NCBI RefSeq assembly: GCF_018798885.1 | Contig: NZ_CP076361.1 | Coordinates: 372,001-436,000, forward strand | Length of the DNA stretch: 64,000 nt | Origin: Gemmobacter fulvus | GTDB taxonomy: Bacteria > Pseudomonadota > Alphaproteobacteria > Rhodobacterales > Rhodobacteraceae | Direction: 5' to 3' | Part shown: positions 21,088 through 46,598 of the stretch, in pieces | Layout: every line of letters starts with the position of its first letter | How positions within the stretch are numbered: the stretch's first letter is position 1 | Program-made: the position numbers and the translations under genes | The notes under the pieces: generated by a model | Seen by the model: only the letters and a program-made list of their open reading frames with translations | Told to the model about the DNA's origin: nothing | The model's database searches: none

Positions 21088-21439
21088 GCTAAACTCATCG
21101 GTCTAGTTTCTGTCCCTTCCGTGATGCCACAGAAACGGACCAACAGCAACACGCCTTCTAAGCCCGCAACGCAGCACATATTCCACCCTTGCAATACAAT
21201 CACAGGTGCATTTTGCCCTGCCTGTTCCGGCTTTGAACGCCGCCCGGATCGCCCTCCGTCGCCAAAGACACAGATAAACTCTGCCGCCCCGCAAGGCCCG
21301 GCACATGGGCCCGAGATGAATTAGCCAAATCCTAATCAAAGCTGAAAAACACAATGCTTTTCCCTTAAGCCATGCTGCGCCACTGTAGGGGAACCCGCTT
21401 CACTTGGCACAATGCCACGGAACCGCAAAGGGCACCGCG
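21088..21439. other. Intergenic region between pcm-like gene and Rieske oxygenase gene
   Basis: 352 bases without a supported gene. It carries the divergent promoters for the pcm-tolC set and for the catabolic island. At 21321-21335 there is a TTAG-N7-CTAA palindrome, shared with two other sites in the island and annotated separately. An AT-rich stretch follows at 21336-21366. Confidence 0.6.
21321..21335. promoter_or_regulatory. Candidate LysR operator, site 1 (upstream of Rieske gene)
   Basis: TTAGCCAAATCCTAA: arms TTAG / CTAA separated by 7 bases, flanked by A and T so that ATTAG/CTAAT pair. It fits the T-N11-A rule for LysR-type boxes. It ends 104 bases before the Rieske start codon. The same TTAG-N7-CTAA form recurs at 26649-26663 and 27704-27718. 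Confidence 0.65.
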
Positions 21440-22573
21440 ATGAACAAGCATACCCCCCTGAGCCCCGCACAGGAATTGCACGCAAATGTCGCCGTGCCGT
21501 TCACCGAAGCCCATGCCATGCCGAAATCGGTCTATACCGATCCGGGGTTTCTGGCGCTGGAACAGAAACACATCTTTGCGCAGGACTGGCTCTGCGTGGG
21601 TCGGGCCGAAAGCCTGCCCAATCCGGGCGATTACCTGACGCTGCAAATCGCCGATGAGCCGGTGATCGTGCTGCGCGACCGCGAAGGGCAGATCCGCGCG
21701 ATGTCCAACGTCTGCCGCCACCGCATGTCGACGCTGTTGCAGGGCCGCGGCCATACCCGCAGCATCGTCTGCCCCTATCACGCCTGGACCTATAATCTGG
21801 ACGGCAGCCTGCGCGGCGCACCCGCGATGTCCCTCAATTCAAGCTTCTGCAAAGAGGCCCAGGGTCTGCCCGCCATCCGCTGTGAGGTCTGGCAGGGCTG
21901 GATCATGGTCTCGCTCAACCCCGACGCCCCGGCCCCCGCCGAGACCCTGGCCGAGGCGGCAGCGCTGATCGCGCCGCTGGACATGACGACCTATACCGAA
22001 ACCTTCCGCGAAACCTTCCGCTGGGCCACCAACTGGAAGGTGCTGGCCGAGAATTTCATGGAAAGCTACCACCTGCCCGTCTGCCATGCCGGCACGATCG
22101 GCGGCGCGTCGAAGCTCGAAGAGATGGTCTGCCCCGAAGGACTGGCGGCCTTCAACTATCACTGGATCCTGAAGAACGATACCGTGCCGCTGGCCCTTGC
22201 CCATCCCGGCAATACCACGCTGACCGGCGATGACCGCCGCAAGACCTGGCTTCTGGCGATCTATCCGGCGCTGCTGATCACCCTGACCCCCGGCTATTTC
22301 TGGTATCTGTCGCTGACGCCCGATGGCCCCGGCCATGTGAATGTGCTGTTCGGCGGCGGCATGTCTGCCGATTGGCTGGCCGATCCCGAGGCGGCGACCC
22401 ATCTCGCCAATGTCAAAGCCCTGCTGGACGATGTGAACATCGAGGACAAGGGCTGCACCGAAAAGGTCTATCGCGGCCTCTCTGCCGGCCTGGCACAGCC
22501 CGGCCCGCTCAGCCATCTGGAGCGGCCCAATTACGATTTTGCCCGCTACCTCGCCTCGCGCATCCCCGCGTGA
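21440..22573 (+). CDS. Rieske non-heme iron oxygenase, alpha subunit (quaternary-amine type)
   Basis: 377 residues. The Rieske 2Fe-2S site is Cys92-x-His94 and Cys111-x2-His114. The mononuclear iron site is in ENFMESYHLPVCH (His211, His216). The residue that bridges the two centres in this enzyme class is Glu208, where ring dioxygenases have Asp. A bridging Glu is known in carnitine monooxygenase CntA and suggests a methylated-ammonium substrate (inference). Such enzymes remove a methyl group as formaldehyde or cleave a C-N bond. No oxygenase reductase is encoded nearby. AAAGGG precedes the ATG. First gene of an operon with the flavoprotein, RidA, DUF1028 and aldehyde dehydrogenase genes. Confidence 0.9.
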   Translation: MNKHTPLSPAQELHANVAVPFTEAHAMPKSVYTDPGFLALEQKHIFAQDWLCVGRAESLPNPGDYLTLQIADEPVIVLRDREGQIRAMSNVCRHRMSTLLQGRGHTRSIVCPYHAWTYNLDGSLRGAPAMSLNSSFCKEAQGLPAIRCEVWQGWIMVSLNPDAPAPAETLAEAAALIAPLDMTTYTETFRETFRWATNWKVLAENFMESYHLPVCHAGTIGGASKLEEMVCPEGLAAFNYHWILKNDTVPLALAHPGNTTLTGDDRRKTWLLAIYPALLITLTPGYFWYLSLTPDGPGHVNVLFGGGMSADWLADPEAATHLANVKALLDDVNIEDKGCTEKVYRGLSAGLAQPGPLSHLERPNYDFARYLASRIPA

Positions 22574-22644
22574 TCCTCCCGCGTGTCTGGGCCAGGCGAT
22601 CTCGCCTGCTGCCCGAAATCTGCTGAATTCCAAAGGACATGATG

Positions 22645-23907
22645 ATGTCAGTCGAAAAGATCGAAGCGCTGGTGGTCGGCGCCGGCCAGGCCGGTGTGGC
22701 CATGAGCGAACATCTGAGCCGCTGCGGCGTGCCGCATCTGGTGCTGGAAAAAGGCCGCATCGCTGAACGCTGGCGCACCGCGCGCTGGGATTCGCTGGTG
22801 GCCAATGGCCCCGCCTGGCATGACCGCTTTCCGGGCATGGAGTTCTCCGGCGACCCCGAGGCCTTTGTCGGCAAGGATCAGGTGGCCGATTACTTCGCCG
22901 CCTATGCCGAAAAATTCCACGCCCCGATCCGCTGCGGCGTCTCTGTTACCGAAGTGGTGCGCAAACCCGGCGGCGGCTTCCGGGTCGACACCTCGCAAGG
23001 CCCGGTCGAGGCGCAATATGTGATCGCCGCCACCGGCGCGTTTCAGGTGCCGCTGATCCCGGCGCTGGTGCCGGAAACGGACGGCATCACCCAGATCCAC
23101 TCCAACAGCTACCGCAACCCCGGCCAATTGCCGCCCGGCGCGGTGCTGGTGGTCGGTGCCGGATCCTCCGGCGCGCAGATCGCCGAAGAGCTGATGGAGG
23201 CCGGTCGCAAGGTCTATCTCTCGGTCGGGCCGCATGACCGCCCGCCGCGCCGCTACCGGGGCCGCGATTTCGTCTGGTGGCTGGGCGTGTTGAACATGTG
23301 GGACGCCGATGCCCCGAAAGGCGCAGACCATACCACCATCGCCGTCAGCGGCGCCCATGGCGGCCAGACAGTCGATTTCCGCAAACTGGCCGCGCGCGGC
23401 ATGACCCTGGTGGGCCGGACCGAACAGTTTGCCGATGGCACCATGACCTTCGCCCCTGATCTGGTCCGCAACATCGACCGCGGCGATGCCAACCTGCTGG
23501 CACTGCTGGACGAGGCCGACGCCTGGGTCACCCGCAACGGCATCGACCTGCCGGAAGACCCCGAGGCCCGCGCCATCGGCCCCGCCCCCGACTGCATGGT
23601 CAACCCGCTGCTCAGCCTCGATCTGGCCGAAGCGGGCGTGACCACGATCCTCTGGGCCACCGGCTTCCGCAATGATTACGGCTGGCTCAAGGTCGATGCG
23701 CTGGATGACACCGGCAAACCCCGCCACCAGCGCGGCGTCTCCTCCGAACCGGGGATCTACTTCCTGGGTCTGCCCTACCAGTCCCGCCGCGGCTCGTCCT
23801 TCATCTGGGGCGTATGGCATGATGCCAAATTCGTGGCCGACCATATCGCCAAACAACGCAGCTACCTGGCCTACCGCGCGCCCGGCGATGCCGCCGCCGC
23901 CGAATGA
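22645..23907 (+). CDS. FAD/NAD(P)-dependent monooxygenase-like flavoprotein
   Basis: About 420 residues. The FAD-binding fingerprint VVGAGQAGVAMSEHL is near the N-terminus, and a second Rossmann fingerprint VLVVGAGSSGAQIAEEL lies near residue 170. The late motif TILWATGFRNDYGWL is typical of flavin monooxygenase and CzcO-like proteins. The best start is ATG 22645, seven bases after AAGGA; two in-frame ATGs lie just upstream. It could oxygenate a nitrogen atom or supply electrons to the Rieske oxygenase, for which no reductase is seen; neither is proven. Its stop region overlaps an alternative start of the RidA gene. Confidence 0.85.
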   Translation: MSVEKIEALVVGAGQAGVAMSEHLSRCGVPHLVLEKGRIAERWRTARWDSLVANGPAWHDRFPGMEFSGDPEAFVGKDQVADYFAAYAEKFHAPIRCGVSVTEVVRKPGGGFRVDTSQGPVEAQYVIAATGAFQVPLIPALVPETDGITQIHSNSYRNPGQLPPGAVLVVGAGSSGAQIAEELMEAGRKVYLSVGPHDRPPRRYRGRDFVWWLGVLNMWDADAPKGADHTTIAVSGAHGGQTVDFRKLAARGMTLVGRTEQFADGTMTFAPDLVRNIDRGDANLLALLDEADAWVTRNGIDLPEDPEARAIGPAPDCMVNPLLSLDLAEAGVTTILWATGFRNDYGWLKVDALDDTGKPRHQRGVSSEPGIYFLGLPYQSRRGSSFIWGVWHDAKFVADHIAKQRSYLAYRAPGDAAAAE

Positions 23908-23918
23908 AAGAGACCACC

Positions 23919-24335
23919 ATGGAACATACCCGCTACCGCACCTTCAACACCAAGGACACCTATCCCGAACAACGGCTGGACAATGATCTGTGCCAGGCAG
24001 TCGCCACCCGCGGCGGCACCACGCTCTGGATGCGCGGCCAATGCCCGCAAGACCTTGATACCGCCGTCAACATCAAGGGCAATGATCCGGTGGAGCAAAC
24101 CCACAAGGTGATGCAGAACATCCGGCAACTGGTTGAAGAGGCTGGCGGATCCATGACTCACGTGGTCAAGCTGGTGGTCTACCTGACCGATGTGCGCCAC
24201 CGCGAGGTGGTCTATCGCACCATGGGCGAATATATCAAAGGCGTGCATCCGGTCTGTACCGGCCTGACCGTGGTGGCGCTGGCCCGCCCCGAATGGCTGG
24301 TGGAAATCGATGCCACCGCCGTGATCCCCGATTGA
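23919..24335 (+). CDS. RidA/YjgF family enamine-imine deaminase
   Basis: 138 residues from ATG 23919 (AAAGAGA upstream); an alternative ATG at 23904 overlaps the previous stop. The Rid fold is recognisable from LWMRGQCPQDLD, EQTHKVMQNIRQLVEEAGGSM, VVKLVVYLTD and the C-terminal ALARPEWLVEIDATAVIP, where Arg would be the substrate-binding residue. RidA proteins hydrolyse reactive enamine/imine intermediates to ketones plus ammonia. Next to amine-oxidising enzymes it probably clears an imine intermediate. Confidence 0.9.
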   Translation: MEHTRYRTFNTKDTYPEQRLDNDLCQAVATRGGTTLWMRGQCPQDLDTAVNIKGNDPVEQTHKVMQNIRQLVEEAGGSMTHVVKLVVYLTDVRHREVVYRTMGEYIKGVHPVCTGLTVVALARPEWLVEIDATAVIPD

Positions 24336-24405
24336 CCCCACAGGGCCGACGCTCCGCCACTCCGGCTCCCGCTGGCCAGACTGGCCCATTCTGAAAACAC
24401 CCGCC

Positions 24406-24457
24406 TTTCATCTTGGCAAAAATATCCTCGGGGGTCCGGGGGCAGACAGCCCCCGGC
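24406..24457. repeat. Intergenic hairpin element before the DUF1028 gene
   Basis: A TTTCATCTTGGC-type lead is followed by a perfect 8-bp stem CCGGGGGC (24436-24443) / GCCCCCGG (24449-24456) with loop AGACA. I recognise this composite (TTTCATCTTGGC, AAAATATC, then a G/C hairpin) as similar to an intergenic repeat of Rhodobacteraceae genomes, from memory only. It lies inside the operon, 22 bases before the DUF1028 start codon, so it may affect mRNA processing. Confidence 0.5.
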
Positions 24458-24478
24458 CTCTCCAACCCAAGGCACCGC

Positions 24479-25153
24479 ATGACCTTTTCCCTCGTCGCCC
24501 GCTGCGCGAAAACCGGCCAGTTCGGCATGGTGATCGCCTCCTCCTCGCCCGCTGTTGCGGCCCGCTGCGCCCATACCCGTGCGGGCGTGGGGGTAGTGGC
24601 CAGCCAGAACGTCACCGACCCGGCGCTGGGGCCTTTGGTGCTCGATGCGCTGGCCTCTGGCCTTGGCGCGGCCGCGGCGCTGGCTCACGTCAAGACTGGT
24701 CGCGAACATATTGATTACCGTCAGATTCTCGTGATTGACCGCGATGGTGGCGTGGCCATTCATTCGGGCGGTCAGGTGCTGGGCCTCTGGGGCGAGGCGC
24801 AGGGGCGCGACTGTGCCGCGGGCGGCAATCTGCTAGCCAATGAGGACGTGCCCCGCGCCATGGTCGCGGCTTTCGAGAGCGCCACAGGCCATCTGGGCGA
24901 CCGGCTGATGGCCGCCTTGCAGGCCGGGTTGTCAGCGGGCGGCGAGGCGGGGCCGGTGCATTCCGCCGGGCTGCGCATCGCCGACCGGCTCAGCTGGCCG
25001 CTGGTTGATCTGCGCTGCGACTGGACCGACAGCTGCCCGATCCAGGCCGTTGAAACCGCTTGGAAAATCTACAAACCGCAGATGGCCGCCTATGTGCAGC
25101 GCGCCATGGATCCGACGCAGGCACCCTCTTACGGCGTGCCCGGAGACGAATGA
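24479..25153 (+). CDS. DUF1028 family protein (Ntn-hydrolase-like)
   Basis: 224 residues beginning MTFSLVARCAKTGQFGMVIAS, the typical DUF1028 opening. GGREH-like and GG-rich turns follow (VLGLWGEAQGRDCAAGGNLLANEDV). The C-terminus has PLVDLRCDWTD. The family has an Ntn-hydrolase-like fold and is often encoded beside RidA and amine or amino-acid catabolic enzymes; its reaction is not established. It ends 4 bases before the aldehyde dehydrogenase start. Confidence 0.88.
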   Translation: MTFSLVARCAKTGQFGMVIASSSPAVAARCAHTRAGVGVVASQNVTDPALGPLVLDALASGLGAAAALAHVKTGREHIDYRQILVIDRDGGVAIHSGGQVLGLWGEAQGRDCAAGGNLLANEDVPRAMVAAFESATGHLGDRLMAALQAGLSAGGEAGPVHSAGLRIADRLSWPLVDLRCDWTDSCPIQAVETAWKIYKPQMAAYVQRAMDPTQAPSYGVPGDE

Positions 25154-25157
25154 GGAC

Positions 25158-26642
25158 ATGATGTTCACCCATGCCGAATGGCAGACCCGTACCGCTGCCC
25201 TGACCTTCCGCAACCAGATCTGGCTGGATGGCAAGCCCGTGCCCGCCGCCTCGGGCGCGCGCTTCGAGTCCGTGAACCCGGCCACGGCGCAGATCCTGAC
25301 AGATGTTGCAAAGGGCGGCGCCGAAGATGTTGATCGTGCTGTCAAATCCGCGCGCCGCGCCTTTGACGACGGGCGCTGGAGCCGCAAGACCCCCGGAGAC
25401 CGCAAGGAGGTGCTGCTGCGCCTTGCCGCGCTGATCCGCGACAATATCCCCGAACTGGCGCTGCTCGACAGTCTGGATATGGGCAAGCTCATCACCGATG
25501 CCGCCACCATCGACGCGCCCGGCTCGGCGCATTTCTTCCAATGGCACGCCGAGGCGATCGACAAGCTCTATGACGAGATTGCCCCCACGGGTGGCCGCGA
25601 TCTGGCTATGGTGCGCCGGGTGCCGCTGGGCGTGATCGGCGCGGTGGTTCCGTGGAACTTCCCGCTCGACATGGCCACATGGAAACTCGCGCCCGCCCTT
25701 GCCATGGGCAATTCGGTGGTGCTGAAACCGGCCGAACAAAGCCCGCTTTCGGCGCTGCGGCTGGCCGAACTGGCCAGCGAGGCCGGGCTGCCGGATGGGG
25801 TTCTGAACGTGGTGCCCGGCTTTGGCCAGGATGCCGGGCAGGCACTTGGCCGCCACCCCGATGTCGATGCGCTAGTGTTCACCGGATCGACCGCCGTGGG
25901 CAAGCTGTTCCTGCGCTATGCGGGCGAAAGCAACATGAAACAGGTCTGGCTGGAGACGGGCGGCAAAAGCCCGAACCTGATCTTTGCCGATTCCGATCTG
26001 GATGCGGCGGCGGATATGGCCGCCTTCGGCATCTTTTTCAATCAGGGCGAGGTTTGTTCCGCCAATTCCCGCATGTTGGTCCATACATCCATCGCCGAGG
26101 AGATGATCGAGCGGATGCGCAGCCGCGCCGCTGCCATGCAGCCGGGCGATCCGCTTGATCCCGCCTCGCGCATGGGGGCCATGGTCGATCAGGCCCATGC
26201 CGATACCGTGATGGGCTTCATCGACAGCGGCAAACAGCAGGCGCGGCTGGTCTGCGGCGGCGAGCGGGTCCGGCTGAACGGGGCGGAAACCTTCATCCAG
26301 CCGACAATCTTTGCTGATGCCGGATCCGAGGCACGCATCGTGCGCGAAGAGATCTTCGGCCCCATCCTGTCGATCCAGACCTTCACCTCGGAAGACGAGG
26401 CCATCGCCATGGCGAATGACAGCCCTTATGGTCTGGCCGCCTCGGTCTGGACGCGTGATCTGAGCCGGGCCTTGTCGGTGTCGGATCGTCTGGTGGCGGG
26501 CACGGTGTCAGTGAACACGGTAGATGCGCTGTCGGCCATGACGCCGTTCGGCGGCATGAAACAATCGGGCTTCGGGCGCGATCTGTCGCTGCACAGCTTT
26601 GACAAATATTCGGCGCTGAAAACAACTTGGATCAAATACTGA
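25158..26642 (+). CDS. PuuC-like NAD(P)-dependent aldehyde dehydrogenase
   Basis: 494 residues (493 if the second ATG at 25161 is used; GAGGA lies just upstream). Numbering from the second Met: Asn166 in VPWNFPLD, general base Glu265 in LETGGKSPN, nucleophile Cys299 in NQGEVCSANSRM. The block order and the C-terminal FGGMKQSGFGRDLSLHSFDKYSALKTTWI match gamma-glutamyl-gamma-aminobutyraldehyde dehydrogenase PuuC of E. coli. This suggests an amine-derived aldehyde substrate. Last gene of the Rieske operon. Confidence 0.92.
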   Translation: MMFTHAEWQTRTAALTFRNQIWLDGKPVPAASGARFESVNPATAQILTDVAKGGAEDVDRAVKSARRAFDDGRWSRKTPGDRKEVLLRLAALIRDNIPELALLDSLDMGKLITDAATIDAPGSAHFFQWHAEAIDKLYDEIAPTGGRDLAMVRRVPLGVIGAVVPWNFPLDMATWKLAPALAMGNSVVLKPAEQSPLSALRLAELASEAGLPDGVLNVVPGFGQDAGQALGRHPDVDALVFTGSTAVGKLFLRYAGESNMKQVWLETGGKSPNLIFADSDLDAAADMAAFGIFFNQGEVCSANSRMLVHTSIAEEMIERMRSRAAAMQPGDPLDPASRMGAMVDQAHADTVMGFIDSGKQQARLVCGGERVRLNGAETFIQPTIFADAGSEARIVREEIFGPILSIQTFTSEDEAIAMANDSPYGLAASVWTRDLSRALSVSDRLVAGTVSVNTVDALSAMTPFGGMKQSGFGRDLSLHSFDKYSALKTTWIKY

Positions 26643-26648
26643 ATGCGC

Positions 26649-26663
26649 TTAGGATTATCCTAA
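26649..26663. promoter_or_regulatory. Candidate LysR operator, site 2 (upstream of lysR)
   Basis: TTAGGATTATCCTAA is a perfect 7-1-7 palindrome with the shared TTAG-N7-CTAA form. It lies 6 bases after the aldehyde dehydrogenase stop and 23 bases before the LysR start codon, overlapping or following the likely promoter, as expected for negative autoregulation. Confidence 0.7.
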
Positions 26664-26686
26664 CCCCAACGGGAGGTGGATAAGCC

Positions 26687-27640
26687 ATGCCCTTGCGCTT
26701 CACCCTGCGACAACTTGAATATCTGGTGGCGGTGGGCGAGTCCGGCTCCATCGCCATGGCGTCGGAAAAGGTGAATGTGTCGTCGCCGTCGATTTCGGCG
26801 GCGATTTCGCAATTGGAACAAGAATTTGGTCTGCCGCTTTTCGTGCGCAAACATGCGCATGGCCTGTCGTTGACCCAAGGCGGCAAACAGTTTGTCGAAC
26901 AGGCCAAGGTGGTGCTGGCCCATGCCGCGCGGCTGAACAATCTGGCCAATGACATCACCGGCAAGGTGCGCGGCCCGCTGCATGTGGGCTGCCTGCTGAC
27001 CTTTGCCCAAGTGGTGCTGCCGCATCTGCGCCGCGGCTTTGTCGACATGAACCCCGAAGTCGATTTCCATCAGTTCGAACGCAACCAGTCCGAGATCTTC
27101 GAGGGGCTGCGCAATGCCACCCTTGATCTGGCGCTGAGCTATGACCTCAACATCCCGCCCGATCTTGAGTTCGTGCCGCTGACCAGCCTGCCCCCCTATG
27201 CCGTGCTGCATGACACGCATGAGCTGGCGCATCTGACGGCAGTCTCCCCGGCAGAGTTGGCAGAATACCCGATGGTGCTGCTGGATCTGCCGATGAGCGC
27301 CGAATATTTCCTGTCGTTTTTCAGCGAGATCGGCGTGAAACCCCGGATTGCCGAACGCACCCGCGACATGGCGGTGATGCAAAGCCTTGTCGGGCAGGGA
27401 TTCGGCTATTCCATTGCCAATATCCGCCCGCACAGCAACCACGCCCCCGATGGCCGCAAGCTGCGTTATGTGCCGCTGACGGGCCCGGTGCGCCCGATGG
27501 AACTGGGGCTGGTGCTGTCAGAAGGCGCGCGCGCCTCGCAAACCGTGCGGGCTTTTGTCGATCATTGTCAGGCCCAGTTGACGCCGGAAAACACGCCGGG
27601 GTTGCGCCTGCGGCTGAGCGATACCGACACGGGCGTCTGA
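26687..27640 (+). CDS. LysR family transcriptional regulator of the catabolic island
   Basis: 317 residues. The N-terminal winged helix-turn-helix is FTLRQLEYLVAVGESGSIAMASEKVNVSSPSISAAISQLEQ, given here as its segments FTLRQLEYLVAV and SSPSISAAISQLEQEFG. The periplasmic-binding-protein-like effector domain starts near residue 90 (GPLHVGCLLTFAQVVLPHL). GGGAGGTGG precedes the ATG. It lies between the Rieske operon and the dehydrogenase/transport operon, all on one strand. The three TTAG-N7-CTAA sites flanking these units make it the likely common regulator. The effector would be the amine substrate or a metabolite. Confidence 0.92.
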   Translation: MPLRFTLRQLEYLVAVGESGSIAMASEKVNVSSPSISAAISQLEQEFGLPLFVRKHAHGLSLTQGGKQFVEQAKVVLAHAARLNNLANDITGKVRGPLHVGCLLTFAQVVLPHLRRGFVDMNPEVDFHQFERNQSEIFEGLRNATLDLALSYDLNIPPDLEFVPLTSLPPYAVLHDTHELAHLTAVSPAELAEYPMVLLDLPMSAEYFLSFFSEIGVKPRIAERTRDMAVMQSLVGQGFGYSIANIRPHSNHAPDGRKLRYVPLTGPVRPMELGLVLSEGARASQTVRAFVDHCQAQLTPENTPGLRLRLSDTDTGV

Positions 27641-27703
27641 CACCTTCCTATGCTGCCGAAAGCGCGGGCACTTCGCCCAAATCGAACGCGCCGGGACGAC
27701 CTG

Positions 27704-27718
27704 TTAGCCTTTCCCTAA
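27704..27718. promoter_or_regulatory. Candidate LysR operator, site 3 (upstream of TMADH-like gene)
   Basis: TTAGCCTTTCCCTAA has arms TTAG / CTAA with 7 bases between them, and shares the TTAGCC start and CCTAA end with site 1. It ends 108 bases before the TTG start of the dehydrogenase gene, nearly the same distance as site 1 from its gene. Confidence 0.65.
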
Positions 27719-27826
27719 GTCCAGCTTCCAGAAGCAATCATTTACCAAAGCCGCTGCGACGGGTCTTTTGGCCGCACCGCCGCGACGCTGTGCCGCATCG
27801 CGCATCCACTGAAGGGAGCCAGGGCC

Positions 27827-29920
27827 TTGCGCGATCCTCGCTATGATATCCTGTTTGAACCGATGGCCATTGGCCCGCTGATGGCGAAGAACCGCTTTTA
27901 TCAGGTGCCGCACTGCAATGGCGGTGGCTACCGCGACCCTTCGGCCGCCGCCGCGATGCGGGGCATCAAGGCCGAGGGCGGCTGGGGCGTGATCTTCACC
28001 GAACAGACCGAGATGCACCACACCTCGGAAATCACCCCGTTCATCGAGCTGCGGCTGTGGGAGGACAAGGATATTCCGATGCTGCGCAAGATGGCGCAGG
28101 CGATGAAAACCCATGGGGCGCTGGCGGGCATCCAGCTGGCCTATTCCGGCATCAATGGCCCAAACATGTATACCAAAGAGGTGCCGCTGGCGCCCTCGGC
28201 GCTGCCGATCCGCACCTTCACCAATGATCCGGTGCAGGCCCGCGCGATGGACAAGACCGACATCCGCAATCTGCGCCGCTGGTTCGTCAATGCCGCCAAA
28301 CGCTGCAAGCTGGCAGAGTTTGACCTGATCTGCCTGTATGGCGCGCATGGCTTCGGCATCTTTCAGCATTTCCTCAGCCGGGCCACCAACCAGCGCAGCG
28401 ATGAATATGGCGGCAGCCTGGAAAACCGCTCGCGCTTTGCCCGCGAAGTGATTGCCGACATGCGCGATGCCGTGGGTGACAGCATGGCGATCACCCTGCG
28501 GGTCAGTCTGGATGAAACCATTGGCGAGCTTGGCTTTTCCAACGCCGAGGTGCGCGATTTCATCGCGATGAATGCCGAACTGCCCGACCTGTGGGATCTG
28601 GCGCAGGGCACCTGGGAAGATTGCTCTGGCCCGTCGCGCTTCAAGGAGGAAGCCGCGCAAGAGGCCCTCGTGCGCGGCATCCGCGACCTGTCGCCGAAAC
28701 CCGTGGTCGGCGTGGGCCGCTTCACCTCGCCCGATGTGATGGCCAAGATGATCCGGCAGGGCACGCTTGATTTCATCGGCTGCGCCCGCCCGTCGATTGC
28801 CGACCCGTTCCTGCCGAAAAAGATCGAAGAGGGCCGGATCGACGATATCCGCGAATGTATCGGCTGCAATATCTGCATCACCGGCGACATGACGCAGGCG
28901 ATCAGCCGCTGCACCCAGAACCCAACCTTCATGGAGGAATGGCGGCGCGGCTGGCACCCCGAAAAGATCGCCACACGCGGTGACAGCGAAAATGTGCTGG
29001 TCATCGGCTCCGGCCCTGCCGGGCTGGAGGCGGCGCGGGCACTGGCCCTGCGTGGCTATGACGTGGCGGTGGCCGAGGCGCGCGACAGCTTTGGCGGCCG
29101 GGTGGCGCGCGAACGGATGTTGCCGGGCCTGTCGGCCTGGGGCCGGGTGGCGGATTACCGACTGTATCAGATCGGCCAACGCCCGAATGTGCAGATGTAT
29201 CCGGGGTCGGATCTGGGCGTGCAGGATGTGCTCGATTTCGGCTTCCAGAACATCTGCATCGCCACTGGCAGCCGCTGGCGCGCCGATGGTGTCGCGCGTC
29301 AGCATGTGCTGCCGATGCCCGGCGCCGATGCCCTGCCCGTCTTTACCCCCGATGATCTGATGGAGGGGCGCATGCCCGCAGGCAAGGTCATGGTCTTTGA
29401 TGACGACCATTATTACATGGGCGGCGTTCTGGCCGAACTGGCGGCGCAGAAGGGCTGCGATGTGACGCTGGTGACGCCCTCGGCCTATGTCAGCGACTGG
29501 ACGATCAACACGCTGGAACAGGGGGCGATTCACCGCCGCCTGATCGCCGCCGGGGTGAAGATCGTGCTGAACACCGGCATTGCCCGCCTGCACGCGGATG
29601 GGGTGGAAACCAGTTGCAGCTATACCGATCAGCGCGGGCGCCTGGCCTGCGATGCCGTGATCATGGTCGCCTCGCGCGTGGCGAATGACAGCCTGTTCCA
29701 TGCGCTGAAGGCCCGGCAGGCCGAATGGGCGGATGCGGGCATCCGTTCGGTGCAGCTGATCGGCGATGCTAGCGCGCCCGGCCCGATCGCCTGGGCCACC
29801 TTTGCCGGCCACCGCTATGCACGCGAGCTGGACAGCGGGGTCTGGGCCGATGAGCATGGCGGCGATTGGGGCGACAGCCTGCCCTTCCGCCGAGAGATCA
29901 CCGAACTGGCGGCGGATTGA
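27827..29920 (+). CDS. Trimethylamine/dimethylamine dehydrogenase-like flavoprotein (N-demethylase)
   Basis: 697 residues. The start is TTG 27827: the resulting N-terminus (RDPRYDILFEP) lines up with the known TMADH N-terminus, and GAAGGGA lies upstream. Residues 1 to about 340 form the FMN barrel with Cys30 (FYQVPHC), equivalent to the cysteine that covalently holds FMN in TMADH, and YGAH, which holds the active-site Tyr/His pair. The 4Fe-4S cluster is CIGCNIC...C (C-x2-C-x2-C-x11-C). An ADP/FAD-like domain follows (VLVIGSGPAGLEAARAL). Position 60, Tyr in TMADH, is Gln here, as remembered for dimethylamine dehydrogenase, favouring a secondary amine. Homologues demethylate N-methylproline or betaine derivatives. 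First gene of an operon with the ABC importer. Confidence 0.9.
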   Translation: MRDPRYDILFEPMAIGPLMAKNRFYQVPHCNGGGYRDPSAAAAMRGIKAEGGWGVIFTEQTEMHHTSEITPFIELRLWEDKDIPMLRKMAQAMKTHGALAGIQLAYSGINGPNMYTKEVPLAPSALPIRTFTNDPVQARAMDKTDIRNLRRWFVNAAKRCKLAEFDLICLYGAHGFGIFQHFLSRATNQRSDEYGGSLENRSRFAREVIADMRDAVGDSMAITLRVSLDETIGELGFSNAEVRDFIAMNAELPDLWDLAQGTWEDCSGPSRFKEEAAQEALVRGIRDLSPKPVVGVGRFTSPDVMAKMIRQGTLDFIGCARPSIADPFLPKKIEEGRIDDIRECIGCNICITGDMTQAISRCTQNPTFMEEWRRGWHPEKIATRGDSENVLVIGSGPAGLEAARALALRGYDVAVAEARDSFGGRVARERMLPGLSAWGRVADYRLYQIGQRPNVQMYPGSDLGVQDVLDFGFQNICIATGSRWRADGVARQHVLPMPGADALPVFTPDDLMEGRMPAGKVMVFDDDHYYMGGVLAELAAQKGCDVTLVTPSAYVSDWTINTLEQGAIHRRLIAAGVKIVLNTGIARLHADGVETSCSYTDQRGRLACDAVIMVASRVANDSLFHALKARQAEWADAGIRSVQLIGDASAPGPIAWATFAGHRYARELDSGVWADEHGGDWGDSLPFRREITELAAD

Positions 29921-29923
29921 GCC

Positions 29924-31000
29924 ATGGATACCCGTAACAAAGCCATCGAGGTCGTCAATGTCGCCAAATCCTTCGGCACCTATCAGGCGCTGAAAGGGGT
30001 CAGCTTCGACATCTATGACAACGAGTTCTTCACCATGCTCGGCCCGTCGGGCTGTGGCAAGACCACGCTGCTGCGCATGATCGCCGGGTTCGAAGCCCCG
30101 ACCAGCGGCACCATCCGCCTGCATGGCAAGGACATCCTGAGCCTGCCCCCGCACAAGCGACGGGTGAATACGGTGTTCCAAAGCTATGCGCTGTTCCCGC
30201 ACATGACACTGGAGGCGAATATCGCCTTCGGGCTGGAGAACATGGGCTGGGCGAAAGACCGGCGCGAGGCCCGCGTGGCCGAGATGCTGGCCATGGTGCA
30301 TATGTCGCAATTCGCCCGCCGCAAACCGGCGCAGCTGTCGGGCGGCCAGCGGCAGCGCGTGGCGCTGGCCCGCGCGCTTGCCCCCGAACCCGAAGTGCTG
30401 CTGCTGGACGAGCCGCTCTCGGCGCTGGACCTCAAGCTGCGTCAGGCGATGCGCGATGAATTGCGCGCCCTGCAACGCGCCACCGGCATCACCTTTGTCT
30501 TCGTGACCCATGATCAGGAAGAGGCGCTGGATATGTCGGACCGGATCTGCGTGCTGGGCCATGGCGAGATTCAGCATCTGGGCACCCCGACCGACATTTA
30601 CGAAGACCCGGAAAACCGCTTTGTCGCGGATTTCATCGGCGAGACGAATTTCTTCGAGGTCGATGTGCTGCGCGTGGACGGCGATCAGGCCACCGTGCGC
30701 ACGCCGATGGGGGTCACGCTGACCACCCTGCACAAGGGCGCACAGCCCGGCCAGCGCGCCACCCTGTCGCTGCGCCCCGAAAAGATCGGGATGGAGGATC
30801 AGGCGGCGGGCGAGCTGATGGAAGGTCAGATCATCACCAAGAATTACATGGGCGGCTATACCCATTACACGGTCGATGTGGGCGGCACCAAATTGCGCGT
30901 GTCCAAACGCAACGCGATTTCGCACAGCACCAGCTTCGATCTGGGCCGCCGGGTGAAACTGGGCTTCCGCCATGACAGCGCACGGGTGCTGGCGCGATGA
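29924..31000 (+). CDS. Polyamine-type ABC importer, ATP-binding protein (PotA-like)
   Basis: 358 residues. Walker A LGPSGCGKTTLL, signature LSGGQRQRVALARAL, Walker B VLLLDEPLSALDLKLR and H-loop FVTHDQEEAL are present, followed by a C-terminal TOBE-type regulatory domain (ATLSLRPEKIGM). This is the layout of spermidine/putrescine importers. It starts 3 bases after the dehydrogenase stop and its stop overlaps the next start (ATGA), so translation is tightly coupled. It probably energises uptake of the amine metabolised by the island. Confidence 0.94.
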   Translation: MDTRNKAIEVVNVAKSFGTYQALKGVSFDIYDNEFFTMLGPSGCGKTTLLRMIAGFEAPTSGTIRLHGKDILSLPPHKRRVNTVFQSYALFPHMTLEANIAFGLENMGWAKDRREARVAEMLAMVHMSQFARRKPAQLSGGQRQRVALARALAPEPEVLLLDEPLSALDLKLRQAMRDELRALQRATGITFVFVTHDQEEALDMSDRICVLGHGEIQHLGTPTDIYEDPENRFVADFIGETNFFEVDVLRVDGDQATVRTPMGVTLTTLHKGAQPGQRATLSLRPEKIGMEDQAAGELMEGQIITKNYMGGYTHYTVDVGGTKLRVSKRNAISHSTSFDLGRRVKLGFRHDSARVLAR

Positions 31001-31878
31001 AAACCCCCGATTTCCGCCTCTGGGGCCTTGCCCCGGCCTGGATCATCATGGCCTTCACGCTCATCCTGCCGATTGCCATCGTGCTGATGGTCAGCTTTGC
31101 CACGCGCGGCGCCTATGGCGGGTTTGAATGGGGCTTTTCGCCTGCCTCCTACACCCAGATCCTGTTCGAGGAAGGCTGGGAGGGCGAAACCGAATTTACC
31201 GCGCAATATCTGTGGATCATCGGGCGCACGCTCTGGCTTGCCGGGCTCACCACGCTGATCTGCGCCGCACTGGCCCTGCCCGCCGCCTATACCATCGCGC
31301 AGGCCGGGCCACGGCTGCGCGCGGTTCTGATCTATCTGGTGACGCTACCGTTCTGGGTGTCGATGATCGTGCGGGTCTATGCCTGGATCATCATTCTGGG
31401 CAATGACGGCGTGATCGAGAAAACCCTGCGCGGGCTGGGGCTGCTGGCCGATATCGACAGCCTGCTGTTCACCAATGGCGCGATGCTGACTGGCCTTGTT
31501 TACTCTTATATCCCGCTGATGATCCTGCCGGTGTTCGCCTCGGTCGAAAAGCTGGATCCGGCACTGATCGAGGCCAGCCATGATCTCTATGGCTCGCGCT
31601 GGGTCACGGCCCGGCGGGTGATCCTGCCGCTGGCGATGCCGGGGCTGATGGCCGGGGCGATCCTTGTGTTCGTGCCCTGCCTGGGGGCGGTGCTGGAGCC
31701 GATCCTGCTGGGCGGCGGCAAGGCCATGCTGATGGGCAACCTGATCCAGACGCAGTTCGGCGGCGGGCGCAACTGGCCCTTCGGCGCGGCCATTGCCATC
31801 CTGCTGATGGGGCTGGTGATGATCTTTCTGATGCTGAACGCGCTCAGGGCGCAGCGCGAGGTGGCCCATGGCGCATGA
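30997..31878 (+). CDS. Polyamine-type ABC importer, permease 1 (PotB-like)
   Basis: 293 residues with six or so hydrophobic helices (WIIMAFTLILPIAIVLMVSFA and others). The EAA loop that contacts the ATPase is EASHDLYGSRWVTARRVILPLAMPG. Overlaps the ATPase gene by 4 bases and permease 2 by 11 bases. It pairs with the next gene as the membrane heterodimer. Confidence 0.93.
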   Translation: MKTPDFRLWGLAPAWIIMAFTLILPIAIVLMVSFATRGAYGGFEWGFSPASYTQILFEEGWEGETEFTAQYLWIIGRTLWLAGLTTLICAALALPAAYTIAQAGPRLRAVLIYLVTLPFWVSMIVRVYAWIIILGNDGVIEKTLRGLGLLADIDSLLFTNGAMLTGLVYSYIPLMILPVFASVEKLDPALIEASHDLYGSRWVTARRVILPLAMPGLMAGAILVFVPCLGAVLEPILLGGGKAMLMGNLIQTQFGGGRNWPFGAAIAILLMGLVMIFLMLNALRAQREVAHGA

Positions 31879-32662
31879 TGTGAAACGCTATCCCGGCGCG
31901 CGCCTGTTTACCGCGCTGTTCTTTCTGTATCTCTATCTGCCCATCGCTGTGGTCATCGCGTTTTCCTTCAACGAAAACCGGCTCGTCTCGGTCTGGACCG
32001 GGTTTTCGCTGAAATGGTATGAAAGTGCGCTGTCCAACCGCGCGCTGATGGATGCGGTGAAGATCTCGCTCACCGTGGCGGTGATCGCCACCGCCATTGC
32101 CACCACCGTCGCACTGATGGCCGCGCTGGTGATCGTGCGGGGCCGCGATGTGCGCTTTCGCCGGGTGTCGGAAACCGTGGTCAACCTGCCCCTGCTGCTG
32201 CCCGAGATCGTGCTGGCGGTGGCGGTGCTGATCCTGTTTTCGCAGCTGGGCCTGCAAAACGGCATGGCCAAGCTGATCATCGCCCATACCGCCTTCTGCA
32301 TCCCCTTTGCCTTCCTGCCGATCCGCGCCCGTCTGCAAGGCATGGAGGCGGATTTCGAAGAGGCGGCGCAGGATCTTTATGCCAGCCCCTGGGTGACCTT
32401 TCGCCGGGTCACGCTGCCGCTGATCGCGCCGGGGGTGTTTGCGGGGGCCATGCTGGCCTTCGTGATCTCGATGGATGATTTCATCACCTCCAACCTGCTG
32501 AACTCGGGCGGGTCGACCACCCTGCCCGTCTATATCTTCGGCCTGATCAAACAGGGCACCACGCCGGAGCTGAACGCGATTTCCACTCTGATCGTCGCAG
32601 GCTCGCTCATCCTTGCCACCACGGCCCTTGTGCTGACCTTCCGCAACCCGAACCGGGGCTGA
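31868..32662 (+). CDS. Polyamine-type ABC importer, permease 2 (PotC-like)
   Basis: 264 residues with about six membrane helices. The EAA loop is EEAAQDLYASPWVTFRRVTLPLIAPG. The segment FAGAMLAFVISMDDFITSNLLNSGGSTTLPVYIFG is characteristic of PotC/PotI permeases; its key part is SMDDFITSN. Overlaps permease 1 by 11 bases and is followed 30 bases on by the binding-protein gene. Confidence 0.93.
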   Translation: MAHDVKRYPGARLFTALFFLYLYLPIAVVIAFSFNENRLVSVWTGFSLKWYESALSNRALMDAVKISLTVAVIATAIATTVALMAALVIVRGRDVRFRRVSETVVNLPLLLPEIVLAVAVLILFSQLGLQNGMAKLIIAHTAFCIPFAFLPIRARLQGMEADFEEAAQDLYASPWVTFRRVTLPLIAPGVFAGAMLAFVISMDDFITSNLLNSGGSTTLPVYIFGLIKQGTTPELNAISTLIVAGSLILATTALVLTFRNPNRG

Positions 32663-32692
32663 ACCCCGGCCCAATCTCAACAGGAGATCCCC

Positions 32693-33709
32693 ATGAAACG
32701 CTTGCTTCTTACCTCCACGCTCATCACCCTGCCGCTGGCCGCCCAGGCCGCGGGAGAGCTGAACCTCTATGTCTGGTCCGACAGCATCGCGCCCGAGCTG
32801 ATCGCCAAGTTCGAGACAGAGACCGGCATCAAGGTCAATGTCGACGGTTACAACTCCAACGAAGATCTGCTGACCAAATTGCAGGCCGGGGCCTCGGGCT
32901 ATGATGTTGTCACCCCGTCGCAGCACTTCCTGAAGATCATGGTCGATGAAGGGCTGCTGGAGGATATCGACGCCCATTCGCTGGCGGCCTATCAGGCGGT
33001 CGACGTCAAATGGCGCAGCCAGTGGTGGGATCCGACCAACGAATTTTCGATTCCCGTTGCCTATGGCACCGCCGGTTTCACCGTGAACCGCGACCAATAT
33101 ACCGGCCCGGTCGACAGCTGGGCGGTGTATTTCGAACCGTCGGCAGAGCTTCAGGGCAAGATCGCCTCGCTGTCCTACCCCGACGAGGTGATCGGCGCGG
33201 CACAGCTCTATCTCGGCGTGCCCTTCTGTTCGGAGGATTCCGCCGAAATGAAAAAGGTTCTGGATCTGCTGATGGCGCAAAAGCCCTTCGTGGCCGCCTA
33301 TACGTCGGACAATATCGAGAACCGCATTGGCGGCGGCGAGGTTGCGGCGCATTTCTGGTGGGATGGCAATTCGATGAAAACCCGGATGAATGACGGGGCA
33401 AAGATCGAATTTGCCATGCCGAAAGAAGGGCTTGTTGGCTGGCTTGACAGTTTTGCCGTGCCGAAGGGCGCGCCGAACGTCGACAATGCGAAAGCCTTCA
33501 TCGACTTCATGTCGAAGGTCGAAAACGCGACGATGCAATACAATTACTACGGCCATTCCGCCCCGGTGGCGATTGATACCGCCACGGCGAAATACACGCC
33601 GGAAAATGCGCCGGAGCTGTTCCCCACGGTCCCGGTCGAGTTTTCGCGCACCTGCTCGCCCGCCGCGCAGGATCTGGTGACCAAGGTCTGGACCCAGCTC
33701 CTGCAATAA
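32693..33709 (+). CDS. Periplasmic polyamine-type substrate-binding protein (PotD/PotF-like)
   Basis: 338 residues with a signal peptide (LLLTSTLITLPLAAQA) and mature start near GELNLYVWSDSIAPELIAKF. The N-terminal strand followed by FETETGIKVNVDGYNSNEDLLTKLQAG is the standard PotD/PotF opening. SGYDVVTPSQHF and GTAGFTVNRDQY follow. It captures a cationic amine and delivers it to the permease pair. Aromatic residues typical of cation recognition are present (WRSQWWDP), but the ligand cannot be read. A terminator follows. Confidence 0.93.
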   Translation: MKRLLLTSTLITLPLAAQAAGELNLYVWSDSIAPELIAKFETETGIKVNVDGYNSNEDLLTKLQAGASGYDVVTPSQHFLKIMVDEGLLEDIDAHSLAAYQAVDVKWRSQWWDPTNEFSIPVAYGTAGFTVNRDQYTGPVDSWAVYFEPSAELQGKIASLSYPDEVIGAAQLYLGVPFCSEDSAEMKKVLDLLMAQKPFVAAYTSDNIENRIGGGEVAAHFWWDGNSMKTRMNDGAKIEFAMPKEGLVGWLDSFAVPKGAPNVDNAKAFIDFMSKVENATMQYNYYGHSAPVAIDTATAKYTPENAPELFPTVPVEFSRTCSPAAQDLVTKVWTQLLQ

Positions 33710-33761: not shown

Positions 33762-35387
33762 ATGACGGCTGATCTTCTGTTGCACAACGCCCGCCTGTTC
33801 GGCGGCACGGCCCCGGTGGCGCTGGCGATCAGGGCGGGTCTGATCGACTGGATCGGGCCGGATGCCGATGCGCCGCCCGCGCAGCGCCGGATGGACGCCG
33901 AAGGGGCCACCCTGCTGCCCGGCTTCACCGAAAGCCATCTGCACATCTTTCTGGGCGGCACGGCGCTGGGGCAGCTCAATCTGGCCAGCCTCAGCACGGC
34001 AGAGGATTTCGCCACCGCGCTGCGCCGCTTTGCCGACACGCTGCCGCCCGGCGCATTCCTCTGCGCCTATGCTGCCAATTACGAAATGCTCGGCCCCGGC
34101 ACCCGGCCCGATCGGCATGCGATTGACGCCGTGGTGGCGGACCGGCCAGTGTTCATCACCTCGACGGATTTTCACGCCGCCTGGGCCAATACCGCCGCCC
34201 TGACGCTGGCGGGCCTGTTGCACGGGGCCGAAACGCCGCCCGGCTCCGAAGTTGTGCTCGGCCCCGATGGTTTGGCGACCGGCGAGCTGCGCGAAGGGGC
34301 CGCGATGGAGCTGGTGCGCTGTCTGACCCCGACCGGCGGGCGCGACAGCACGGCGATGATCGGGCAGGAACCGCCCCATACCACGCCCGAACACCGCGCC
34401 CGCGACAAGGCCACCATCCTGCGCGCGCTGGAGTATTGTGCGCGCCATGGCATCACCTCGGCGGTGAACATGGATGGCAACCTCTATCAGGCCGGGCTGT
34501 TCACTGAACTCGCAGACCAGCTGCCGATCCGCGTCAAACTGCCGATGAACCTGACCGAAGATCAGGACGAAGCCCGGCGCGCAGCGCTGATTGCACAGGC
34601 GCAAAGCCCCGACCTCGGCAAGCTGTCCTTCGGTATGATCAAGATGTTCATGGACGGCGTCTATGACACCTGGACCGCGCATGTGGTCGGCGGCTATCCC
34701 GGCGATCCCGGCAATGACGGGCCGCGCCTGATTTCTGCGGCGGGCTTTGCCGATCTGGCGACCCGCGCCGATGCGGCGGGGCTGCAAATCGCGGTGCATG
34801 CCGTGGGTGATGGCGCGGTGCGGACGGTGATCGACGGTTATCAGGCGGCGCAGACCGCGAATGGCGCGCGCGACAGCCGCCACCGGATCGAACATATCGA
34901 CACGATCCAGCCCGCCGATCTGCCGCGCCTGAAGGCGCTGGGGATCATGGCCTCGATGCAGCCGGTGCATCCGCCCGGCAGCGCGGGCCTGCCGCTGGAG
35001 CCGACGACCACGATCATGGGGCGCGACCGCTGGCCCACCGCCTTTCCGTGGCGGATGATCGTGGATCAGGGCACGCCGCTGGCCTTTGGCACCGATTGGC
35101 CGGTCTCGCCGCTGGATCCGCTGTTCTGCCTGCATTGCGCGCTGACCCGTCAGCTCTGGGCCGAAGACCTGCCCGACCAGCGGCTGACCCTGCCCGAGGC
35201 GCTGGCCGCTTATAGTGCCGCCGGGGCCTATGGCATGTTTGCCGACACCCGGCGCGGCCGTCTGGCGGTGGGGATGCAGGGCGATGTGATCCTGGTGGCG
35301 GGCGATCTGGCCGGGCTGTCGCACCACCCCGATGCCGCCCGCGTCACGCTGACGCTTTGTGACGGCAAGGTGATCTGGCAGGGCTGA
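33762..35387 (+). CDS. YtcJ-like metal-dependent amidohydrolase
   Basis: 541 residues, amidohydrolase family 3. The N-terminal metal-binding pair is in ESHLHIFLGG, with later HAVGDGAVRTVIDGY and HRIEHIDTIQ histidines and the Asp in FGTDWPVSPLDP. These enzymes hydrolyse amide-type C-N bonds; substrates of the YtcJ group are mostly unknown. It lies directly after the importer operon terminator and on the same strand, so it may belong to the island, perhaps releasing the amine from an amide precursor (inference), but its expression may be separate or depend on read-through. Confidence 0.88.
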   Translation: MTADLLLHNARLFGGTAPVALAIRAGLIDWIGPDADAPPAQRRMDAEGATLLPGFTESHLHIFLGGTALGQLNLASLSTAEDFATALRRFADTLPPGAFLCAYAANYEMLGPGTRPDRHAIDAVVADRPVFITSTDFHAAWANTAALTLAGLLHGAETPPGSEVVLGPDGLATGELREGAAMELVRCLTPTGGRDSTAMIGQEPPHTTPEHRARDKATILRALEYCARHGITSAVNMDGNLYQAGLFTELADQLPIRVKLPMNLTEDQDEARRAALIAQAQSPDLGKLSFGMIKMFMDGVYDTWTAHVVGGYPGDPGNDGPRLISAAGFADLATRADAAGLQIAVHAVGDGAVRTVIDGYQAAQTANGARDSRHRIEHIDTIQPADLPRLKALGIMASMQPVHPPGSAGLPLEPTTTIMGRDRWPTAFPWRMIVDQGTPLAFGTDWPVSPLDPLFCLHCALTRQLWAEDLPDQRLTLPEALAAYSAAGAYGMFADTRRGRLAVGMQGDVILVAGDLAGLSHHPDAARVTLTLCDGKVIWQG

Positions 35388-45890: not shown

Positions 45891-46598
45891 CTGCCCCAAG
45901 GTCCCTTGTGTGTGGCGGGCCTTCGCCCTGCCGTTTGTCCTCGTCCGCGCTTTGCGTCGGCATACAGGAACCATCGCGCTGCCCGTCTGGCCGGACAGCG
46001 CGCACCACAGCATGACATGCGGCGCATCTTGTGATTCTGATCTGCATCCCCACGACAAAACACCAGATTTTGTGTGCTGTGTCGTTGCGATGACAAACTG
46101 TCGGAAATTTCTTCCCCATTCAACGAGAAAATTTGCTCCCCGCCGCGCTATTTAGTGTTGACGGGTGACTTACCCACAAGGGGTATGATTTCTGATCGAT
46201 TCAGACCACGGGCGGGCCGCTGTGGATGGTTTCGGGGACAACTGCGGGACACCTTGGCCAAAGCCCCGCAAATATTCAGGGAATGGGCAGATTTGCGGGA
46301 AAGGCTTCATGCCCTGCCTGAACGGGGATAACTCGGTTGCCGTAACGGAAGATGCGCCACGATCTGCCGCCAGCAGATTTTGTGCCAACACAAGCTGTTG
46401 TGGCGGCAAAGTAACATTCCCTTAATCTGACACTAAGGCTGGATCAGAATCGGGCAAGCGCCGGGCTGATTCCCGCAGCCGGTCGGCAAGGGAGTGATGC
46501 GCCCGGTTTTTCCCATTGGCAGCGCGGGAACCAAACCGCAGTCTCGGGCCTGTTTCCTGCGGGCATATCTGCCGCGCAGCATCACAAGGGGAAAGCGG
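45891..46598. other. Long intergenic region upstream of nrdJ and the DUF533 gene
   Basis: 708 bases without a supported protein gene between divergent genes. A candidate NrdR box lies at 46060-46075. AT-richer tracts at 46090-46170 include TTGACG at 46155 that could be a -35 element for the rightward gene. I looked for a cobalamin riboswitch for nrdJ and could not identify its conserved boxes. A small RNA cannot be excluded. Confidence 0.55.
46060..46075. promoter_or_regulatory. Candidate NrdR box upstream of nrdJ
   Basis: ACACCAGATTTTGTGT has intact outer arms ACAC/GTGT and matches about 13 of 16 positions of the NrdR consensus (ACACWATATATWGTGT, from memory). It lies 170 bases upstream of the nrdJ start codon. 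NrdR boxes normally occur in pairs about three helical turns apart, and I could not find a clear partner, so support is moderate. Confidence 0.4.

Follow-up and report, generated by a model that had tools for sequence, protein, structure and literature searches.

The analysed window is a stretch of 64,000 nucleotides from Gemmobacter fulvus (RefSeq assembly GCF_018798885.1, contig NZ_CP076361.1, forward strand, positions 372,001 to 436,000), and it contains an island of catabolic genes together with a gene for a LysR-type regulator. Comparative analysis suggests, with a probability of about 0.8, that this LysR, a protein of the HinK type, controls a histamine-utilisation island through the palindromic box TTAG-N7-CTAA and two putative operons. 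The box heads a rigid promoter element of about 66 bp, which is newly reported here.

Box conservation and the promoter element

Three exact copies of the box lie in the window, at the coordinates where an earlier note, made from the letters of this DNA, had located them and taken them to define a LysR regulon:

21321-21335, + strand: site 1, TTAGCCAAATCCTAA; exact match, conserved in relatives; putative LysR-binding box in front of the Rieske operon
26649-26663, + strand: site 2, TTAGGATTATCCTAA; exact match; box without promoter module, between the aldehyde dehydrogenase gene and lysR
27704-27718, + strand: site 3, TTAGCCTTTCCCTAA; exact match; putative LysR-binding box in front of the dehydrogenase/importer operon

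Shuffled versions of the window contained 0.04 exact matches on average, and none of 100 shuffles reached three. The whole genome (4,677,627 bp) has five exact boxes, three of them in the window, as compared to 33 matches of a reversed-pattern control. The occurrence of the motif in the window is far above the chance level. A scan with one mismatch allowed added a single further match in the window, at 46422, and the resulting four matches are unremarkable (20 of 100 shuffles); therefore only the exact form of the box is significant. Site 1 ends 104 bp before the ATG of the Rieske oxygenase gene (21440), site 2 23 bp before the ATG of lysR (26687), and site 3 108 bp before the TTG of the dehydrogenase gene (27827). 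The near-equal distances of sites 1 and 3, which the earlier note had also pointed out, arise because both boxes are fixed relative to a common promoter module. Site 2 is a perfect dyad about its centre base, as had likewise been noted.

Conservation of the box was assessed in loci that were selected by the LysR gene and never by the box. A LysR orthologue was found at E <= 1e-60 in 67 of the 295 genomes of a family sample, the window's own included. The search yielded 72 LysR places, namely the window's own, 60 that were fetched, and the 11 lowest-scoring ones, which were left out; the fetched places and nine further orthologue loci (L006-L014) made up a set of 69 loci (1.195 Mb), to which the genomes G200 and G073 contributed two loci each. 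These loci contain 86 boxes, whereas 0.22 were predicted from the frequencies of the arms, and each of the spacers 3-6 and 8-12 gave only zero to three matches; among all 256 four-base dyads, TTAG-N7-CTAA was the most enriched. In 83 of the 86 cases, the box could be assigned to a gene of the cluster located 15-282 bp further downstream, and 53 of the 69 loci have at least one such box. The assigned boxes precede genes for a FAD-dependent monooxygenase (FMO; n = 23), histamine dehydrogenase (HDH; n = 17), the importer ATPase PotA (n = 13), the Rieske oxygenase (n = 9), LysR (n = 8), the flavin monooxygenase HpaB (n = 7), and RidA (n = 6). The box thus is conserved upstream of orthologous genes in relatives, where the earlier note had proposed to look for it. 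Within the nine further loci, all three boxes were present in L008, L009, L013, and L014, two in L006 (a short contig), two exact ones plus one with a mismatch in L007, one exact plus one mismatched copy in both L011 and L012, and none in L010 (a 3.1-kb contig).

A stricter count was confined to genes with at least 45% identity, an intact N-terminus, and 300 bp of upstream sequence present, a box between divergent genes being credited to each of them. Among the first genes of a transcription unit, an exact box (in parentheses, a box with at most one mismatch) preceded FMO in 28 (41) of 43 cases, HpaB in 7 (8) of 8, potA in 15 (15) of 19, the Rieske gene in 11 (15) of 17, and RidA in 6 (7) of 10, and exact boxes were absent before DUF1028 (0/7), amidohydrolase (0/2), and flavin reductase (0/1) genes. 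HDH genes, whether first in their unit or not, had an exact box in 17 of 33 cases and one with at most one mismatch in 25. The unit-internal genes had a single box before FMO (1/9) and none before DUF1028 (0/52), RidA (0/49), the permeases (0/22), the Rieske gene (0/16), aldehyde dehydrogenase (0/15), potA (0/9), amidohydrolase (0/6), the binding protein (0/5), flavin reductase (0/4), and HpaB (0/1). Two control dyads scored 0 in every upstream class.

An ungapped, box-anchored alignment of 77 promoters (75 from the loci and two from the window) revealed a fixed layout downstream of the box. The conserved positions are G21 (in 65 of the 77 sequences), C22 (49), T23 (66), A29 (73), T35 (63), C37 (53), T38 (74), T39 (76), T40 (53), A62 (54), and T66 (54), with weaker preferences elsewhere. 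Positions 38-43 and 61-66 are the putative -35 and -10 regions, separated by a 17-bp spacer, which would place the transcription start near position 73 and the centre of the box at about -65, and a weak dyad centred on position 32 is a candidate second LysR site. In the window, the following parts were recognised:

21341-21386, + strand: promoter module 3' of site 1, as defined by the 77-promoter alignment, with GCT-N5-A-N5-T-n-CTTT at 21341-21360
about 21358-21363, + strand: candidate -35 of site 1, overlapped by the candidate second LysR site
about 21381-21386, + strand: candidate -10 of site 1
27724-27769, + strand: promoter module 3' of site 3, with GCT at 27724-27726, a candidate -35 at about 27741-27746, and a weak candidate -10 at about 27764-27769

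Scored on the module alone in a leave-one-locus-out scheme (threshold 5 bits; 99.9% of random positions stay below 3.5), 72 of the 75 loci promoters exceeded 5 bits. In the window, site 1 scored 36.9 and site 3 21.8, whereas site 2 scored -17.3. In classical LysR-activated promoters a T-N11-A box lies near -65 and a second site near -35. TTAG-N7-CTAA includes T-N11-A upstream of its targets, and its centre would lie roughly 65 bp 5' of the putative start. The use of T-N11-A as the LysR box is described in PMC10912698. Unlike in classical LysR promoters, the regulator gene here lies within the controlled region and on the same strand instead of being divergent, and the spacing is rigid across six gene classes.

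A composite pattern, consisting of the first 40 bp of the element, proved to be more specific than the box alone. At up to three mismatches it occurs in the window's genome only at site 1 (no mismatch) and site 3 (one mismatch), the backward control giving 8 and 7 matches, and the regulon of this genome therefore probably comprises just these two operons. In a comparison of 50 family genomes, of which 26 have a LysR orthologue at the same E-value cutoff and 24 do not, the composite was found with one mismatch or none in 19 of the 26 genomes with LysR and in none of the 24 without, and with at most two mismatches in 23 of 26 versus 2 of 24 (G013 and G017). At three mismatches it was common in both groups, and the backward control equally common or commoner. 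The proposal of a LysR regulon defined by the box thus gained strong support from conservation in many genera, from the shared module, and from the co-occurrence with LysR. In G013, which has no LysR orthologue at the cutoff, the two-mismatch composite is situated at G013:C1:699807-699846 on the minus strand, and this copy may be used by a more distant regulator.

The element was also found outside the family sample. An exact box with the module precedes HDH in L114, a Shinella plasmid (12650), and in L120 (12636), a record that is labelled as the betaproteobacterium Roseateles but marked as unverified. A Rhizobium gallicum plasmid (L115) has an exact box with the module before potA (17718) and a one-mismatch copy before HDH (12577), and in another Rhizobium locus (L119), whose LysR is 40% identical, exact box and module precede an importer gene (9029). 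In a phylum sample, the element was retained in all four fetched loci with a LysR of 57% identity (L153-L156). Relatives of this LysR are frequent on Klebsiella plasmids, which make up 106 of the 229 plasmid records with a match. A DUF1028 homologue with 59% identity to that of the window (L119:7144-7818) bears the annotation FimA (fimbrial assembly protein), which is likely a misannotation.

Site 2 lies inside the first of the two putative operons and, if active, would act as a local brake or an extra operator before lysR; its most likely role is that of a local brake or none. The earlier note held that the LysR also controls itself; a true autoregulatory operator at site 2, through which the LysR would activate or repress its own promoter, appears doubtful. 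The perfect dyad so close to lysR agrees with it, as do the exact boxes 15-24 bp from the start in 8 of the 67 lysR upstream regions (300 bp; 10 of 67 with at most one mismatch) and the report, in PMC8231116, that HinK controls its own expression. However, all eight lysR-proximal boxes in relatives scored below 0 for the module, a standard promoter would not fit into the gap between box and start codon, and an exact box is missing before 59 of the 67 lysR genes.

Island genes and the HinK-like regulator

The genes of the island were assigned by Pfam and NCBIfam scans and by comparison with solved structures, except where stated otherwise:

21440-22573, + strand: Rieske oxygenase alpha subunit (GbcA/CntA-like ring hydroxylase); Pfam Rieske and Ring_hydroxyl_A, PDB relatives
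22642-23907, + strand: FMO, MSMEG_0569-like below the model cutoff; proposed HinF counterpart
23919-24335, + strand: RidA family protein; proposed HinL counterpart
24479-25153, + strand: DUF1028 protein (210.5 bits); proposed HinH counterpart
25161-26642, + strand: aldehyde dehydrogenase, PuuC-like below the model cutoff; proposed to act on imidazole acetaldehyde
26687-27640, + strand: LysR-type regulator, HinK-like; Pfam HTH_1 and LysR_substrate
27827-29920, + strand: HDH; full-length match to the Rhizobium enzyme 6de6
29924-33709, + strand: PotABCD-type importer; proposed substrate histamine
29924-31000, + strand: importer ATPase (polyamine-type ABC; Pfam/NCBIfam)
30997-31878 and 31868-32662, + strand: importer permeases, by open reading frames, position, and orthologues, outside the family scan
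32693-33709, + strand: importer binding protein (Pfam/NCBIfam)
33762-35387, + strand: amidohydrolase (Amidohydro_3); proposed imidazolone-acetate hydrolase

Homology over the full length to characterised histamine dehydrogenases identifies the enzyme as one of them: it matches that of Rhizobium (6de6) with 1234.5 bits over residues 1-694 and that of Nocardioides (3k30) with 802.1 bits, as against 516 bits for trimethylamine dehydrogenase. Variants of the Rhizobium enzyme at F72 and N110 altered histamine specificity, according to PMC10180351, and both residues are identical in the window's HDH (manual count on the alignment with 6de6). The window's enzyme differs from its Rhizobium relative in that it comes with a regulator, a promoter element, and an importer; no description of the gene cluster of 6DE6 appeared among the matches listed. 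Since the dehydrogenase matches histamine dehydrogenases, histamine is the probable substrate of the island, to be taken up and then oxidised through imidazole acetaldehyde and imidazoleacetate. The Rieske protein, FMO, aldehyde dehydrogenase, and amidohydrolase did not reach the NCBIfam equivalog cutoffs, and we therefore infer the later steps of the pathway; the best NCBIfam match of the amidohydrolase was the imidazolonepropionase HutI, over a short N-terminal stretch and far under the cutoff. Gene order, and gene order only, supports an equation of FMO with HinF, of RidA with HinL, and of DUF1028 with HinH.

The LysR contains the domains HTH_1 (residues 7-66) and LysR_substrate (residues 93-298), both above the Pfam cutoff. 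Its nearest solved chains are 6m5f/3fzv with 198 bits, both titled "probable transcriptional regulator", followed by a next match at 95.5 bits, and this nearest solved relative is probably HinK. According to PMC8231116, HinK is the imidazoleacetate (ImAA)-responsive LysR regulator of Pseudomonas histamine catabolism, binds the hinD and hinF promoters, and governs hin genes that convert histamine to imidazoleacetate and the latter to aspartate. The window's regulator resembles it in LysR type and in the association with histamine/imidazoleacetate genes, the boxes preceding two histamine catabolic operons, the HDH operon and the Rieske/FMO operon. In the family f44 of the phylum sample, taken to be Pseudomonas-like, all five fetched loci (L166-L170) have FMO-RidA-DUF1028, an aldehyde dehydrogenase gene, or both in the neighbourhood of a LysR relative. 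These relatives are only 37-39% identical to the window's LysR, however, and their loci have no exact box but share another promoter motif. The published Pseudomonas hin genes include those for the aminotransferase HinC and the permease HinA, in place of which the window encodes a histamine dehydrogenase of the flavin type and an importer of the PotABCD type. The system is most fittingly classed as a HinK-like regulon for histamine and imidazoleacetate in alphaproteobacteria; its box and its rigid promoter element are newly defined. The earlier note had regarded regulator and box as undescribed; for the regulator this has to be qualified, because its probable homologue HinK is published, whereas for the alphaproteobacterial regulon or box no paper appeared among the matches listed from the open-licence literature. 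In distant promoters, probably of Pseudomonas, AT-rich blocks such as AGCTTTTTC and AATAATTTTCCT or AATAATATTTTAT are shared 5' of aldehyde dehydrogenase (L166, L167, L169) and 5' of FMO (L168, L170) and are perhaps the HinK operator of those loci.

According to the mechanism proposed here, a LysR tetramer would bind the TTAG-N7-CTAA (T-N11-A) box, some 65 bp upstream of the putative transcription start, and would also contact the looser dyad A-x-G-x-A-N5-T-x-C-x-T, which overlaps the -35 region. Binding of a pathway compound, most likely imidazole-4-acetate, to the effector domain would then activate two operons, the first comprising the genes for Rieske oxygenase, FMO, RidA, DUF1028 protein, aldehyde dehydrogenase, and LysR, and the second those for HDH, importer, and amidohydrolase. 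Imported histamine would be converted to imidazole acetaldehyde and imidazoleacetate, whose ring would be opened toward aspartate.

Gene content of the first operon varies in relatives. In L007 (1227-2747), L008, L009, L013, and L014, an HpaB-type flavin monooxygenase gene separates the site 1 promoter from the Rieske gene, whereas the corresponding part of the window (21336-21439) contains no HpaB gene but has retained the promoter; a search of the window's genome, run without a positive control, yielded no HpaB either. The gap between the RidA and DUF1028 genes harbours AAAATATCCTCGGGGGTCCGGGGGC (24419-24443), which is present as a single copy in the window; similar intergenic repeats occur in this family.

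Counter-evidence and alternative explanations

Several observations weigh against a HinK-type histamine regulon acting through this box. An assigned exact box was missing from 16 of the 69 loci. Nine of these (L063, L066, L079, L080, L087, L088, L096, L099, and L100) carry the module and a mismatched box directly ahead of a gene of the cluster, with scores from 15.3 to 39.7. The corresponding element of L102 is weak, L097 has a weak unplaced match, and L056 an exact element pointing away from known cluster genes; no element reached the scoring threshold in L010, L090 (whose first gene runs off the contig), L095, and L101. A sigma-70 scan of 21100-28000 detected no consensus promoter, and the -10 region of site 3 is poor. 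The predicted structure of the LysR had a mean pLDDT of 45.8, and no fold was used. The equation of 6m5f/3fzv with PA0218 and HinK is only probable: the literature on 6M5F, 3FZV, and PA0218 did not confirm that these structure entries represent HinK. None of 16 loci with a LysR of 35-53% identity (L157-L172) had an exact box or an element above the threshold, the exact box was absent from one Klebsiella pneumoniae (L117) and one Pantoea (L118) plasmid locus with a LysR of 44-45% identity, and the dyads listed as common to 17 promoter regions of 14 distant loci did not include TTAG-N7-CTAA. As the exact box is gone at distant loci, no claim of the box outside the Alphaproteobacteria is made; it seems to have diverged along with the regulator. 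The box alone was also found 123 times in the 26 genomes with LysR and 78 times in the 24 without (medians 4 and 2), a poor specificity that is partly due to Irr-like sites. Owing to this poor separation the box alone, unlike the composite, was rejected as a genome-wide marker. Finally, 36 of the 69 loci show no HDH gene within the sequence fetched, which spans up to 19 kb, and 21 of these 36 do have an assigned box.

Given these HDH-less loci with a box, a different imidazole compound may serve as the core inducer or substrate. A real LysR regulon whose core pathway degrades such an imidazole or amine compound, with HDH as a peripheral add-on in some genomes and a ring-cleavage intermediate as inducer, is nevertheless unlikely. 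It would fit the one plasmid cluster each of Klebsiella and Pantoea, which comprise FMO, importer, ArgE, DUF1028, and RidA but no HDH in the 16.9 kb seen. Against it stand the window's HDH gene, which is preceded by a separate copy of the promoter element and encodes a full-length match to a characterised enzyme, and the HinK-controlled conversion of imidazoleacetate to aspartate by the Pseudomonas hin genes (PMC8231116). Moreover, HDH may lie elsewhere in those genomes whose fetched stretch shows none, the rest of these genomes not having been searched.

The box of the Irr/ICE iron-control system is TTAGAAnnnTTCTAA (TTAGAA-N3-TTCTAA) and has the same outer TTAG...CTAA arms. Two genome matches of the box lie outside the island. 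One of them is in L005; the other, TTAGAATTATTCTAA at L004:1501-1515 (G000:C1:1434207-1434221), is likely an Irr site and is situated 12 bp before an open reading frame that was read, without a family-library scan, as encoding a membrane-bound ferritin-like/VIT protein. That the island boxes are themselves Irr/ICE sites is most improbable: although AA/TT-flanked boxes recur in genomes both with and without LysR and site 2 differs from TTAGAATTATTCTAA at two positions, none of the three window sites fits the Irr/ICE pattern, both the downstream module and the set of genes go along with the LysR cluster, and Irr was rejected as the factor for these boxes because only 9 of the 83 island boxes have an A at position 5.

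Catabolism of homarine or trigonelline was the assignment considered first. It was dropped, as the literature matches listed contained nothing on these genes and the histamine dehydrogenase match was decisive; the accessible part of PMC9870897 contains no mention of homarine, histamine, imidazole, or Rieske, and that of PMC9723723 mentions homarine but neither histamine nor imidazole.

Significance of the regulon and a flavin reductase-LysR fusion

With the HinK-like histamine regulon, a LysR without a name in 67 of 295 family genomes (the window's own included) would gain a function, a candidate inducer, and an operator/promoter rule, and a diet including histamine or imidazoleacetate is predicted for many alphaproteobacteria. 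The rigid 66-bp element can serve as an annotation marker and offers a natural case of LysR activation geometry across many promoters; element and regulator may also supply a part for a histamine or imidazoleacetate biosensor.

In 4 of the 69 loci, the cluster encodes a fusion of a flavin reductase with a LysR effector domain that lacks the HTH, as open frames at L013:3945-5111, L075:6611-7831, L086:2861-4078 (minus strand), and L104:6465-7775; the Pfam domains were verified for L013 only. The fusion occurs in four of the five loci with a flavin reductase match, the exception being L045, and in the window's genome the reductase and effector-domain halves match separate places only. The fusion protein, a side find more novel than the regulon itself, is possibly a ligand-gated flavin reductase. 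Tentatively, the ligand sensor may have been used twice, in the LysR activator and, in some relatives, as the effector domain on the flavin reductase, so that one compound (imidazoleacetate) would gate both transcription and enzyme activity. A reductase switched on in this manner by its ligand would feed a flavin monooxygenase.

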